Assembly: GCA_017470325.1 (NCBI GenBank)
Contig: JAFUES010000077.1
Location: 1-11,115 of the forward strand
Length of the DNA stretch: 11,115 nt
Source of the DNA: Oscillospiraceae bacterium
Lineage (GTDB): Bacteria > Bacillota_A > Clostridia > Oscillospirales > Oscillospiraceae
Direction of reading: 5' to 3'
Position 1 is the stretch's first letter; each line of letters begins with the position of its first letter. Shown here piece by piece: positions 5,630-11,115 of this stretch. Under the pieces are notes generated by a model. The model was not told the origin of the DNA. It did not search any database and saw nothing but the letters and a program-made list of their open reading frames with translations. Position numbers and translations under genes: made by a program.

Positions 5630-5800
5630 TGTACTCGATAGCGCTCCACTTGCGTGACAGTCCGGCGGATATTCTCCGACGGCCCAGCGAAGAGGAGCGC
5701 AGCTGCTGTTCTTCACTTCGGCGATGTTCCCTTTCGTCCCCTGCGAAAGCTGCTTCTGAGCAGGGGCTTACTGATGAACCTCGCGCCTCTATCTTGTCTG
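5630..5800 (-). promoter_or_regulatory. Lysine riboswitch (L-box) aptamer
   Basis: The minus-strand leader matches the L-box consensus at several spaced blocks: AGAGGCGCGAGGTTCATCAG near 5790, GGGGACGAAAGGG near 5740, ATCGCCGAAG just after it, and CTGTCACGCAAGTGGAGCGC near 5650. The P1 closing stem is GATAG (5793-5789) with CTATC (5641-5637). The P3-like stem CCCCTGC/GCAGGGG is also present. Known L-box RNAs bind lysine and repress lysine synthesis or import genes. Here the aptamer sits between a good promoter and an intrinsic terminator ahead of the ABC importer operon, so high lysine should switch the operon off. Confidence 0.93.
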
Positions 5801-5946: not shown

Positions 5947-7122
5947 TCATTTCATCAGAGCCCGGATCCGCTTTTCCAGACGGCCGTTTTTCAGATCGTT
6001 CAGGTCGATCACGGCGATGTTCAGCTCGCCCGCCCGGTTGCGCATGGGGGCGCCCCCACGCTCGGCGGTGACGATTGCGGCGCGGGCGATCTGGCCGCCG
6101 AAGCGGTCCCGCAGGATGGCCAGCTCGTTGAGCGCCTCCGTCTTCACGTCGCAGGTCTTGCAGCTGATGAACACCGGCGTGACGCCACGGGTGCACATCA
6201 CGTCCAGCTCATTGGTGACAGCGTTCTGCTTGCCGTCGCCCTCCCAGTCCACGATGGCGCTGGTGCGCACATCGCTGAACAGGCCAGTGTCCAGGCAGAT
6301 CTTGTAGGTGTACAGCTCCAGCACGCTGCCCACATCCCGCAGCCAGGCGCGGATCTGGGCATCCCGGAAGCGGAAGGATACGCCGCTCTCCTCGTCGATT
6401 TTCAGGTCCCGGATGAAGCCGATCTGTTCCATTCCCCGCAGGGCGTCCTCCGGAGCACTGATGCGGGCGGCCCGCTCGCCCTTGACGGTGTAGGCGCCTG
6501 AGGCGTCCAGGGAGACGGGGCCGTCGGGATTGCCGGGGGAGACACGCTGGATATAGGTGACAATCTTGGTCCAGCTGCGCCGGTTATCCAGGTACAGCCG
6601 GAAGAAGGGTTCGATGTCGTTGTAATAATTGACCAGGATATCGTTGTCTACCCGGCCGGTGCGCATGGAGCCGCCCGCCATCATAAAGAAGTCCTCCACA
6701 CTGTAGGTGACATTGCAGGGGAGCTTGGCCGCGAAGGGGGCGTTGCGGATGTCGTAAAAGCAGTTCTTTCGGCGGCTGTATGTAAACACCGGGATGGGCA
6801 GCTCCGTACTGAGCAGGCCCGCGGCGAAAAGCACCGCATCGGTGCCGCCGGTGATGTCCATGGCGCAGTCGGAATACTGGCTGACCACCTTCCGAAATAC
6901 ACGGAGCACGGCCTCCGTGTCGTAGATGTTGGCCTTGACGAAGATCAGCTCCACCTTCTGGCCCCGATGGCTGAAATAGGTCCGCAGCTTTTTGTGGATG
7001 CGCGTGTTGGATGCGATATTCTCCGGGCAGATGTACACCACCCGCTCGGGCTTGAACATCTCCACTCCCAACACATTCTCCAAGGGCCGCTCGTCATACA
7101 GTTCGATCAGCGTCTGCATCAT
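5947..7122 (-). CDS. Card1/Can2-like CARF-domain nuclease (DUF1887 family)
   Basis: A 391-residue cytosolic protein resembling the DUF1887 (Card1/Can2) family: an N-terminal CARF domain, a middle winged-helix-like linker and a C-terminal PD-(D/E)xK nuclease. The CARF part (about 1-145) has the Rossmann-like strand RVVYICPEN and the loop M-D-I-T-G-G-T (88-94) that in CARF proteins helps bind cyclic oligoadenylate. The nuclease core shows E269 in S-V-L-E-L, N-E-L-D-V (304-308) and VFISCK (317-322), so the E-x-K position reads S-C-K. Characterised relatives are DNA/RNA nucleases switched on by cyclic tetra-adenylate from type III CRISPR. No CRISPR array or Cas10 is in this window. The start at 7122 has AAGGTG ahead of it and overlaps the preceding stop by 4 bases (ATGA). 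Family call good; activating signal and activity inferred. Confidence 0.82.
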   Translation of the reverse strand: MMQTLIELYDERPLENVLGVEMFKPERVVYICPENIASNTRIHKKLRTYFSHRGQKVELIFVKANIYDTEAVLRVFRKVVSQYSDCAMDITGGTDAVLFAAGLLSTELPIPVFTYSRRKNCFYDIRNAPFAAKLPCNVTYSVEDFFMMAGGSMRTGRVDNDILVNYYNDIEPFFRLYLDNRRSWTKIVTYIQRVSPGNPDGPVSLDASGAYTVKGERAARISAPEDALRGMEQIGFIRDLKIDEESGVSFRFRDAQIRAWLRDVGSVLELYTYKICLDTGLFSDVRTSAIVDWEGDGKQNAVTNELDVMCTRGVTPVFISCKTCDVKTEALNELAILRDRFGGQIARAAIVTAERGGAPMRNRAGELNIAVIDLNDLKNGRLEKRIRALMK

Positions 7123-7664
7123 AGCTTTTCACCTTCGCGCAGCCGTTTGCGCACATAGGCGAAGGCCGCGGCTTCGCCCTCGTCCTTGAGCACCCGCAGC
7201 ATTTCCTCCAACTCAGCCGCCGTATCCGGATGGATCAGGAGCTCTGCCTTGGAACGGACGAAATAATCATAGGGGGAGGCGTCGGTATAGGCGTCCCGCT
7301 GGTAGACCTTGCTGGCGGCGATCCGATCGCAGAACATCTCCGCCACATAGCGCAGCGGCATCCGGTTGCCGCCGTAGGTCACATGGCCGTCGGGAGTGAT
7401 CATGTAGTCGATCCAGTACTCGAAGTGGTGCCGGTTGCGCCCTTTGTGGTGCAGCCAGGCCAGGGACATGCCGGTGTCCATGCGCTCGGCGTCGTTGGGG
7501 CTCCGGTTGCCCTGATAGTATTTGGCGCCGCGCCAGAACTCCACCGGGGCATATTTGCTCAAATCATGGGTCAGACCCTGCCAGACCAGACCTAAGCGCA
7601 GGCAGTACTTGCAGACAAGATTGCGATGTTCCGTTATGGTTTTGAAATGTGCGATTGGGTGCAT
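7119..7664 (-). CDS. DUF5662-like protein with HD-phosphohydrolase-like motifs
   Basis: A 181-residue predicted soluble, helical protein that I associate with DUF5662, a family of unknown function. It has a spaced set of possible metal ligands: H13 in T-E-H-R, H33-D34 in T-H-D-L-S-K, H72-H73 and H79-H80 in HHKGRNRHHFEYW, and D113 in F-C-D-R. This H...HD...D order resembles HD-domain phosphohydrolases, an inference from pattern only. GGAGGT stands 5 bases before the ATG. Its stop overlaps the start of the CARF nuclease gene by 4 bases, so the two are almost certainly cotranslated, which suggests a joint role, for instance nucleotide turnover or control of the nuclease. The gap to the upstream HMA gene is only 37 bases. 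Confidence 0.75.
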   Translation of the reverse strand: MHPIAHFKTITEHRNLVCKYCLRLGLVWQGLTHDLSKYAPVEFWRGAKYYQGNRSPNDAERMDTGMSLAWLHHKGRNRHHFEYWIDYMITPDGHVTYGGNRMPLRYVAEMFCDRIAASKVYQRDAYTDASPYDYFVRSKAELLIHPDTAAELEEMLRVLKDEGEAAAFAYVRKRLREGEKL

Positions 7665-7702: not shown

Positions 7703-8071
7703 TCAGCTCTCCCGGTACTCCGTGATCGTGTAGCCTGCCCGGCGTACCGCCTCACGAATGGCTGCCTCATCGGGCTGAGTCTTGCACAGGACCCGGGCGC
7801 TCTGCGTGTCGATTGCGACCCTGGCCCAGACGCCGTCCAGGCCATTCAGGGCGTTCTCTATCTTGCGGGCGCAGTTTGCACAGGTCATACCGCCGATCTG
7901 CAGGGAGAGAGTATAAGGGTAATGAGCCCTGTTGCGGTCCGCGACGGGCACTTTTTTGTCGGCTTCCTCATGCTCGCCGCAGCAGCCGCCGCCCTTGCGG
8001 GACCTCTGTACCGTGCGCCATACGGCCCAGGCGACGAGGGCCAGCAGGAGAAGGATGACGATGAGATTCAT
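7703..8071 (-). CDS. Membrane-anchored heavy-metal-associated (HMA) domain protein
   Basis: A 122-residue protein with one N-terminal membrane segment (about 3-19), a basic stretch R-S-R-K, a GGGCCG Cys pair (C30, C31), and a C-terminal HMA fold (about 53-120) with the metal-binding motif M-T-C-A-N-C (C64, C67). HMA domains bind single soft or transition metal ions and hand them to partner transporters. The N-terminal half looks like a FeoB-associated Cys-rich membrane protein, so this seems a fusion of that type with an HMA domain. The ATG at 8071 overlaps the stop of the small Cys-rich gene by one base (TAATG), with AAAGGAG 11 bases upstream. Its place in the feo operon suggests a metal-handling role beside FeoB; whether it carries iron or another metal cannot be told. 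Confidence 0.87.
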   Translation of the reverse strand: MNLIVILLLLALVAWAVWRTVQRSRKGGGCCGEHEEADKKVPVADRNRAHYPYTLSLQIGGMTCANCARKIENALNGLDGVWARVAIDTQSARVLCKTQPDEAAIREAVRRAGYTITEYRES

Positions 8072-8242: not shown

Positions 8243-10594
8243 TCACCCCAGACCCAGCAGCAGGCCGATCAGCCGCACCAGCAGGGCGGCGACCCAGGCG
8301 ATGAGGCATTGCCAGAGCACCAGCATGGCCGCCCAGCGGCCGCCCAACTCCCGCTTAACGGAGGCGATGGCCGCCACACAGGGGGTGTACAGCAGGCTGA
8401 ACACCAGCAGGGAAGCGGCGGACAAGGTGCTCATCATGGCGCTGACAGCGCCGGCAGAGCCAAAGAGCACCTCCAGTACCGACACTACGCTCTCTTTGGC
8501 CATGAAACCGCTGATGAGCGAGGTGGCGATACGCCAGTCACCCAGGCCCAGGGGACGGAGCAGAGGCACCAGCCAGCCGGAGATCAGCGCCAGCATGCTG
8601 GCCTGGGAGTCCTCCACCAGGTTGAAGTGGAAGTCGAAGCTCTGCAGGAACCAGACCACGATGGTGGCGATGAGGATGACGGAGAAGGCCTTCTGCAAAA
8701 AGTCCTTGGCCTTTTCCCACAGCAGCTGCAGGACGCTCCTGGGGCTGGGCATGCGGTAGTTGGGCAGCTCCATCACAAAGGGGACCGCCTCGCCCTTGAA
8801 CTGGGTGTTTTTATACAGCAGCGCCACCAGGATCCCGGTGAGGATGCCCAGCAGGTACAGGCCGGTCATGACCTGCCAGCCGTAGCGGGGGAAGAAGGCG
8901 CTGACAAAGAATGCGTAGATGGGCAGCTTTGCCGTGCAGCTCATGAACGGCGTCAGCAGGATGGTCATCTTCCGGTCCCGGTCGCTGGGCAGCGTCCGGG
9001 TGGACATGACGGCGGGCACCGTGCAGCCGAAGCCGATCAGCATGGGGACGATGCTCCGCCCTGACAGGCCGATCTTCCGCAGCAGCTTATCCATGAAGAA
9101 GGCCACGCGGGCGATATAGCCGCTGTCCTCCAGCAGGGACAGGAAGAAGAACATGGTGACGATGATGGGCAGGAAGCTCAGCACGCTGCCCACGCCCTCA
9201 AAGATACCGTCTATGATCAGGCCGTGGATGGCCTCATTTACATGCCCGGCGGTCAGTGCGGCGTCCACCACCCCGGCCAGCCACTCGATCCCCATGGCCA
9301 GCAGGTCCTGTAGCCAGGCGCCCACCACCTCAAAGGTCAGGTAGAAGACCAGAGCCATGATGGCGATGAAGACGGGCAGAGCCGAATATTTACCGGTGAG
9401 GATGCGGTCGATCCGCTGGCTGCGCAGATGCTCCTTGCTCTCCTGGGGCTTCACCACACACTGCTGACAGACCTTGTCGATGAAGGCAAAGCGCATGTCC
9501 GCGATAGCGGCGCTCCGGTCCAGGCCCCGTTCCTTTTCCATCTGGAGCACGATATGCTCCAGCATTTCCTTTTCGTTCTGATCCAGCTCCAACTGGTTGA
9601 GGATCAGCTCATCGCCCTCAATGAGCTTGCTGGCGGCAAAGCGCACCGGCAATCCCACCCGCAGGCAGTGGTCCTCGATCAGGTGCTGCACCGCGTGCAG
9701 GCAGCGGTGTACCGCGCCGCCGTGGTCCTCTGCGCTGCAGTAATCCTGCCGCAGGGGCTTTTCCTGATAGCGGGCGATATGGAGCGCGTGGCGCACCAAC
9801 TCGTCCACGCCCTGGTTCTTGGAGGCAGAGATGGGCACCACCGGCACGCCCAACAGAGCCTCCATGCCGTTGACGTCAATGGAGCCGCCGTTGCCGGTGA
9901 CCTCGTCCATCATATTCAGCGCCACCACCATGGGGATCTCCATCTCCAGCAGCTGCATGGTCAGATAGAGGTTGCGCTGGATGTTGGTGGCGTCCACGAT
10001 GTCGATCACGGCCTTGGGCTTATCGTTGAGCACGAAATTGCGGGAGACCAGTTCCTCACTGGAATAGGGGGACATGGAGTAGATGCCCGGCAGGTCGGTG
10101 ATGGAGGTGTTGGCCTGGCCCCGGATAGCGCCGTCCTTCCGGTCCACCGTGACGCCGGGGAAATTGCCCACATGCTGGTTGGCACCGGTGAGCTGGTTGA
10201 AGAGCGTGGTTTTGCCGCTGTTCTGATTGCCCACCAGGGCAAAGGTCAGCTTCACATCCTCGGGCAGGGGATTGCCGGTGCCCTTGGGGTGAAACTTGCC
10301 TTCCTCGCCCAGACCGGGATGATGGCTTTCTTTTTTCACTTTTTGCCCGGCCTCGGCCTGTTGTGCCGCCTCTACGGGCCGCACCGTGATCTTCTCCGCC
10401 TCCGAAAGGCGCAGCGTCAGCTCATAACCGTGGATGCGCAGCTCCATGGGGTCGCCCAGAGGCGCCAGCTTCACCACAGTGATCTCCGCCCCGGGGATCA
10501 CGCCCATATCCAGAAAATGCTGCCGCAGCGAACCGCTGCCGCCCACCTCTGTTACACATGCGCTCTGGCCGGGTTTTAAATCTCTGATCGTCAT
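8243..10594 (-). CDS. feoB: FeoA-FeoB fusion ferrous iron transporter
   Basis: Inner-membrane ferrous iron importer, 783 residues. Residues 1-75 form a FeoA-like SH3 domain (MTIRDLKPGQ..., DMGVIPGAEI), then a polar linker (76-113) leads to the FeoB G domain. GTPase motifs are intact: G1 GNQNSGKT (122-129), G2 Thr near 149 in F-P-G-V-T-V, G3 D-L-P-G (167-170), G4 N-M-M-D (227-230), G5 S-A-S-K (256-259). The membrane domain (about 400-783) has both gate motifs: G-C-T-V-P near 523-527 with RSIVPMLIGFG before it, and S-C-T-A-K-L-P near 552-558. The start at 10594 has AGGAGG 9 bases upstream. FeoA is usually a separate protein; here it is joined in one chain, as in some anaerobes. It heads an operon with the Cys-rich and HMA genes and is probably iron-repressed. 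Confidence 0.97.
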   Translation of the reverse strand: MTIRDLKPGQSACVTEVGGSGSLRQHFLDMGVIPGAEITVVKLAPLGDPMELRIHGYELTLRLSEAEKITVRPVEAAQQAEAGQKVKKESHHPGLGEEGKFHPKGTGNPLPEDVKLTFALVGNQNSGKTTLFNQLTGANQHVGNFPGVTVDRKDGAIRGQANTSITDLPGIYSMSPYSSEELVSRNFVLNDKPKAVIDIVDATNIQRNLYLTMQLLEMEIPMVVALNMMDEVTGNGGSIDVNGMEALLGVPVVPISASKNQGVDELVRHALHIARYQEKPLRQDYCSAEDHGGAVHRCLHAVQHLIEDHCLRVGLPVRFAASKLIEGDELILNQLELDQNEKEMLEHIVLQMEKERGLDRSAAIADMRFAFIDKVCQQCVVKPQESKEHLRSQRIDRILTGKYSALPVFIAIMALVFYLTFEVVGAWLQDLLAMGIEWLAGVVDAALTAGHVNEAIHGLIIDGIFEGVGSVLSFLPIIVTMFFFLSLLEDSGYIARVAFFMDKLLRKIGLSGRSIVPMLIGFGCTVPAVMSTRTLPSDRDRKMTILLTPFMSCTAKLPIYAFFVSAFFPRYGWQVMTGLYLLGILTGILVALLYKNTQFKGEAVPFVMELPNYRMPSPRSVLQLLWEKAKDFLQKAFSVILIATIVVWFLQSFDFHFNLVEDSQASMLALISGWLVPLLRPLGLGDWRIATSLISGFMAKESVVSVLEVLFGSAGAVSAMMSTLSAASLLVFSLLYTPCVAAIASVKRELGGRWAAMLVLWQCLIAWVAALLVRLIGLLLGLG

Positions 10595-10763: not shown

Positions 10764-11115
10764 TCAGAAGCTGTTCGCCCGCAGCCACTCGTAGGCGGCA
10801 TAGACTTCCTCGGTCACATCCACGCCCTCTCTGTTGATCAACTGCTGGCGGGGCAGATCCTCTTCAAAGTTCAGATGCGCTTGCTCGGCGATGGCATTGC
10901 GCAGATAGTTGTTGTCGTCGGAGAAACCGGGATCCGGCTGCAGCTGGCAGACACTGTAGGCCTCCATGATGGCGCCCACCTGGACGCCGTAGAGTGTGAG
11001 CCCCTCATACTTGCTCAGATCTTTTACCGGGCCCTGAGCGCGGTAAAGGGCGGCCACATCCTCGGTCAGCCACTTTTTCTCCGCCTTGTCCACGATCTTG
11101 AACTCCTGATAGCTG
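10764..11115 (-). CDS. Unrecognised protein, 3' part; 5' end lies beyond the window
   Basis: The reading frame stays open from the stop at 10764 to the right edge. In the visible part the protein is hydrophilic, acidic, predicted helical and without membrane segments, and ends E-W-L-R-A-N-S-F. A GTG at 11093 preceded by AGGAG (9-base gap) could start a 109-residue protein, but the codons before it read Y-Q-E-F-K-I-V-D-K-A-E-K-K, which looks like continuous coding sequence, so I treat it as a partial gene. I recognise no domain or catalytic motif. A strong terminator follows it, so it belongs to a transcription unit upstream of the feo operon. Confidence 0.6.
   Translation of the reverse strand, partial: SYQEFKIVDKAEKKWLTEDVAALYRAQGPVKDLSKYEGLTLYGVQVGAIMEAYSVCQLQPDPGFSDDNNYLRNAIAEQAHLNFEEDLPRQQLINREGVDVTEEVYAAYEWLRANSF

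Follow-up and report, generated by a model that had tools for sequence, protein, structure and literature searches.

Here, we analyzed an 11,115-nt stretch of DNA (the window) from an Oscillospiraceae bacterium (GenBank assembly GCA_017470325.1, contig JAFUES010000077.1), in which two overlapping genes encode a nuclease with a CARF domain and a protein of the DUF5662 family. The nuclease belongs to a conserved, mostly CRISPR-free branch, and it is in this branch that the novelty lies, CARF nucleases of this kind being already known. On balance, we somewhat favor the reading that the window encodes a chromosomal, CRISPR-independent, ligand-gated nuclease of the VC1899/Can2 type together with a DUF5662 protein that is a probable HD phosphohydrolase. 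The predicted fold, the intact catalytic residues, the conservation of the branch, the rarity of Cas10 and the replacement of four known ligand contacts carry this reading. The features concerned are as follows.

5947..7122, minus strand: gene of the CARF and PD-(D/E)xK nuclease, 391 amino acids (open reading frame list, Pfam, PADLOC and structure comparison)
6742..7119, minus strand: CARF (Rossmann-like) domain of the nuclease, approximately residues 1-126 (alignment and structural matches)
5971..6333, minus strand: core of the PD-(D/E)xK nuclease domain, approximately residues 263-383 (Pfam, alignment and structure)
7119..7664, minus strand: gene of the DUF5662 protein, 181 amino acids, a predicted HD-like helical metalloenzyme
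7119..7122, minus strand: ATGA in which the DUF5662 stop codon and the nuclease start codon overlap, read in the sequence

An alternative in-frame ATG at 7119 would give a nuclease of 390 amino acids and matches the MxTLIELYDERP start of its relatives; residue numbers below follow this reading. As the original prediction had claimed, the two open reading frames are present at 5947..7664 and coupled by ATGA, and the same overlap is repeated in a sister genome (locus L006). In this genome (RUG12358, a Ruminococcaceae metagenome-assembled genome; G001, L001), the region is collinear and the DUF5662-nuclease order identical. Since the window and its sister share ~93% protein identity for both products, with ratios of non-synonymous to synonymous substitution (dN/dS) of ~0.14 for the nuclease and ~0.09 for DUF5662, the pair of genes is more than a product of chance, and both genes are under purifying selection.

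The predicted Card1/Can2-like architecture and fold of the nuclease were borne out by Pfam, PADLOC and structure comparison. The protein scored 34.0 bits against PF09002 (Card1_endonuc; cut-off 26.4) and has an N-terminal CARF fold, with CARF-only structural matches covering approximately model residues 1-128. A near full-length match (159 bits, residues 1-385) to PDLC01895, one of the PADLOC CARF4 CARF_PDDEXK models, indicates that this architecture has already been listed as candidate defense; the model is silent on ligand, CRISPR independence and a DUF5662 neighbor. No NCBIfam family was found at E 0.1 for either the nuclease or DUF5662, and a weak HFX_2341_N match of the nuclease, below cut-off, was disregarded. 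Conservation was read from an alignment of the window with 26 of 34 branch loci (27 sequences) and from a second alignment to which 14 distant relatives were added (41 sequences). Residues N303-E304, D306 and S319-C320-K321 align with Can2 and are invariant in 41/41 sequences, including the catalytic E304, D306 and K321 of the PD-(D/E)xK core; judged by sequence, the catalytic residues are intact. Within the CARF domain, D9, R11, D88, G91, G92 and T113 are invariant and D94 occurs in 26/27 branch sequences. The order of the CARF and PD-(D/E)xK domains, the fold and the E-x-D...CK active site are shared with Can2 and Card1, which are CRISPR ancillary nucleases activated by cyclic tetra-adenylate (cA4).

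In this branch, type III CRISPR with Cas10 is the exception, and the refutation that the original prediction had tied to type III linkage fails. A direct-repeat search (at least 20 nt, copies within 300 nt) found no CRISPR-like array in the window or in 17 kb of the sister contig, where just a 19-nt tandem repeat (L123, 44-114) and scattered pairs occur, and no cas-type Pfam match was found among the ten window proteins scanned, that at 10764-11114 having no Pfam match of any kind. The sister genome gave no Cas10 match. The 84 branch genomes have a nuclease identity of at least 46%; relatives at 23-35% were excluded from co-occurrence counts, and G671 (53%, partial nuclease), where no Cas10 search was made, was excluded from the 84. 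A survey of 295 genomes of the order found nuclease relatives (E 1e-5) in 37, Cas10 in 16 and both in 3 (G149, G227 and G277), with the two genes sharing a contig only in G277. Among 102 genomes of the sister's genus, the nuclease was found in 55, Cas10 in 4 and both in 2, at marginal Cas10 scores. A single genome (G003) of the 34 branch genomes from other samples had Cas10, on a different contig from the nuclease. Overall, a match to Cas10, the one cas gene searched, was detected in 3/84 branch genomes and the nuclease lay apart from type III loci, unlike a CRISPR ancillary effector; the branch is therefore an orphan. The marginal matches may be false, because the Cas10 model PF22335 also matches the E. 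coli control genome, which is not known to carry Cas10. Searches of plasmids (E 1e-8) and phages (E 1e-5) gave no match to the nuclease, and none was confirmed in viral contigs (47 pattern stretches). No conserved neighbor was found in 41 loci for reading frames of at least 80 amino acids; the largest clusters were antisense frames over the nuclease, ABC ATPases at scattered distances (9) and FeoB-like proteins (6).

The predicted ligand pocket also differs from that of Can2, whose cA4 contacts are given as Ser19, Thr42, Lys99 and Tyr118 (Can2 numbering) in PMC7969007. In the profile alignment these positions correspond to D9, P32, D94 and T113, such that all four contacts are replaced. Hence, the branch is unlike Can2 and Card1 both in this respect and in the rarity of Cas10. 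Orphan family members have been reported earlier, namely VC1899 in PMC7969007 and Daci_4198 in PMC4012209. VC1899, an orphan CARF nuclease of Vibrio cholerae (PF09002, PDB 1xmx), is 16% identical to the window nuclease and has Arg96 vs. Asp94 in the window branch. Unlike VC1899, the window branch is conserved and occurs commonly among gut Clostridia.

The product of the second gene scored 133.4 bits against DUF5662 (cut-off 27), a family that Pfam labels "of unknown function" and for which a literature search on the name found no paper. In an alignment of 40 DUF5662 proteins (the window and 39 of 71 loci, with near-duplicates and two fusions excluded), H13, H33-D34, H73, H79-H80, E109 and D113 are invariant in 40/40. 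By the order of residues, this would constitute the H ... HD ... D metal-ligand set of the HD superfamily. PgpH-type enzymes use such an H..HD..H..HH..D set, and the HD domain of PgpH was the top structural match (VIA) of DUF5662, albeit with all Z scores below 8, where chance arrangements occur. PgpH is described as a cyclic di-AMP (c-di-AMP) phosphodiesterase, and DUF5662 would resemble it and the HD-GYP proteins in both its predicted helical core and its residue set. The HD-like order of the original prediction is supported in a suggestive rather than a proven manner, and in most genomes DUF5662 probably acts on its own, as a phosphohydrolase of the HD superfamily. No conserved neighbor of DUF5662 was found, the largest cluster comprising 7 of 71 loci, and its presence in viral contigs was not confirmed (3 pattern stretches). 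A weak Molydop_binding match, below cut-off, was disregarded. Ten phage-collection records (MT837485, MT838682 and others; H1-H10), mostly unannotated human fecal contigs, contain DUF5662 relatives of up to 71% identity, and the protein is also related to PHROG 20637, a group of unknown function. DUF5662 shares a single reading frame with a C39-like peptidase in L055 (1489-2937) and with an Orn/DAP/Arg decarboxylase in L137 (1489-3294); these and further frames of 605-762 amino acids around DUF5662 are either fusions or mere open frames. Some public records name DUF5662 proteins "catalase" (P0145, P0171 and P0181), a name without support in the present data.

The original prediction held up with respect to the architecture, the CRISPR-free branch and, suggestively, the HD-like DUF5662; its conserved two-gene cassette was rejected on adjacency and co-occurrence counts. 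Both genes occur in 32 genomes and are adjacent in 2 (G001 and G155). Adjacency was examined in loci of 81/84 branch genomes, some of which end at a contig boundary; G584, G606 and G665 gave nuclease fragments only, and in G606, one of the 32, the genes lie on different contigs. Within the family, DUF5662 is found in 9/27 genomes with the nuclease vs. 80/273 without it (odds ratio 1.2, p 0.66), and within the genus in 22/55 vs. 11/47 (odds ratio 2.2, p 0.09). With adjacency in 2/32, no significant co-occurrence and no conserved neighbors, a lack of conserved adjacency, which the original prediction had named as evidence against itself, is largely what was found. In G001 the order is DUF5662-nuclease, as in the window, and in G155 it is reversed, with the conserved DUF5662 start 14 nt past the nuclease stop and preceded by a GGGAGG motif; an upstream in-frame ATG would give an ATGA overlap with the nuclease stop. 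In the nuclease tree, the window and G001 cluster at support 0.95 with L141 and L094, from genomes that contain both genes but not side by side. In the DUF5662 tree, G155 clusters with L131 and L132 (0.85), where the nuclease is on another contig. The two adjacencies look independent, although each tree comes from a single FastTree run, is rooted at its midpoint and has weakly supported deep nodes. Random gene order would yield 0.012-0.018 neighboring pairs in 32 genomes. Since the first adjacency prompted the search, just the second counts as evidence; its p of ~0.014, which treats the 32 genomes as independent, is suggestive of a partnership and not more. It is improbable, in our estimate, that the genes form a true signaling module, with the HD enzyme acting like a ring nuclease as an off-switch that breaks down the CARF ligand. 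The ATGA coupling in the window and its sister, the G155 arrangement on separate tree branches against the random expectation and the PgpH match speak for such a module, whereas adjacency in just 2/32 genomes, the absence of significant co-occurrence and the 80 of 89 DUF5662-bearing genomes (among 300 of the family) without the branch nuclease speak against it. The fuller version, a CRISPR-free nucleotide-signaling module of gut Clostridia with a CARF nuclease gated by a nucleotide other than Cas10-made cyclic oligoadenylate, DUF5662 as a new family of signal-clearing HD phosphodiesterases and an operon formed independently in at least two lineages, strikes us as more doubtful still. The partnership is an interesting lead, albeit a thin one.

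Several observations weigh against our favored reading of a CRISPR-independent, ligand-gated nuclease with an HD phosphohydrolase. Near the modelled site, the branch retains conserved basic residues, R11 (27/27) and R116 (24/27), which correspond in position to the contacts His21 and Ser121 of Can2. A relative with 26% identity is the last gene of a type III-B operon in G277 (L219, 336-8227), in which Cas6, Cas10/Cmr2, Cmr3, Cmr4 and Cmr6 were confirmed by family search; it scores 23.0 against PF09002, under the cut-off of 26.4. Because this relative likewise has Asp at the Lys99 position, the acidic residue does not exclude a Cas10-made ligand, and the Lys99-to-Asp change is weakened as proof of a different one. 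There is some doubt about the lack of Cas10, because the genomes are largely metagenome-assembled and of unstated completeness, and no other cas gene was searched. As for DUF5662, Foldseek gave no match of its model below E 0.65, its Z scores are low throughout, and the two genes lie apart in 30/32 genomes. The type III-B-linked G277 relative, which shares the acidic pocket residue, and G003, with its branch nuclease and clear Cas10, speak for an alternative that we consider rather unlikely, in which the nuclease is a cyclic-oligonucleotide effector that answers in trans to Cas10 or other defense-made signals encoded apart, for example on mobile elements or by cyclases of cyclic oligonucleotide-based antiphage signaling systems (CBASS). 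This is opposed by a Cas10 frequency in the branch that is not above the order background (16/295), by nuclease neighbors that resemble chromosomal housekeeping genes, as judged from open reading frames, and by the lack of plasmid and phage matches. Finally, PMC7969007 calls the orphan VC1899 a possibly degenerate enzyme. That idea, together with the patchy distribution in the genus (55/102), would fit a drifting remnant that lost its CRISPR partner and gained its DUF5662 neighbor by accident. We regard this as very unlikely in view of the catalytic and several pocket residues invariant over 27 branch sequences, the low dN/dS and the many public relatives (2919/7996 scored candidates below 1e-3).

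Under the favored reading, two nuclease chains would pair via their CARF domains, and a small ligand of nucleotide type, a product of the cell and not of Cas10, would bind between them. Once bound, it would draw the two PD-(D/E)xK domains together at a DNA or RNA substrate, and activation would probably serve a stress or anti-phage response. In the window lineage, and seemingly on a separate occasion in a second lineage, DUF5662 and the nuclease may have become co-expressed, and gene order alone suggests that DUF5662 could then clear the ligand or adjust its level.

Two further genes precede the pair in a codirectional minus-strand series of FeoA-FeoB, the FeoB-associated protein, DUF5662 and the nuclease.

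8243..10594, minus strand: FeoA-FeoB fusion, ferrous iron transporter (Pfam)
7703..8071, minus strand: FeoB-associated membrane and heavy-metal-associated fusion protein, 38 bp upstream of DUF5662 and codirectional with it

The latter unites, in one protein, a FeoB-associated membrane segment with a heavy-metal-associated domain, and its gene may share a transcript with that of DUF5662. On the other side of the nuclease, a lysine riboswitch (RF00168, 94 bits, 5631-5799, minus strand) lies ahead of codirectional transporter genes for a solute-binding protein, permease and ATPase (5507 down to 2614), followed by an M20 peptidase and a malate/lactate-type dehydrogenase (Pfam); this riboswitch-led run is probably devoted to lysine uptake.

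CARF nucleases are understood mainly via type III CRISPR. A conserved branch that keeps its catalytic residues and rarely occurs with Cas10 points to either an unfamiliar ligand and synthase or a role outside defense, and the branch supplies many close orthologues for testing. If DUF5662 is indeed an HD phosphodiesterase, the DUF5662 family would gain a testable activity.
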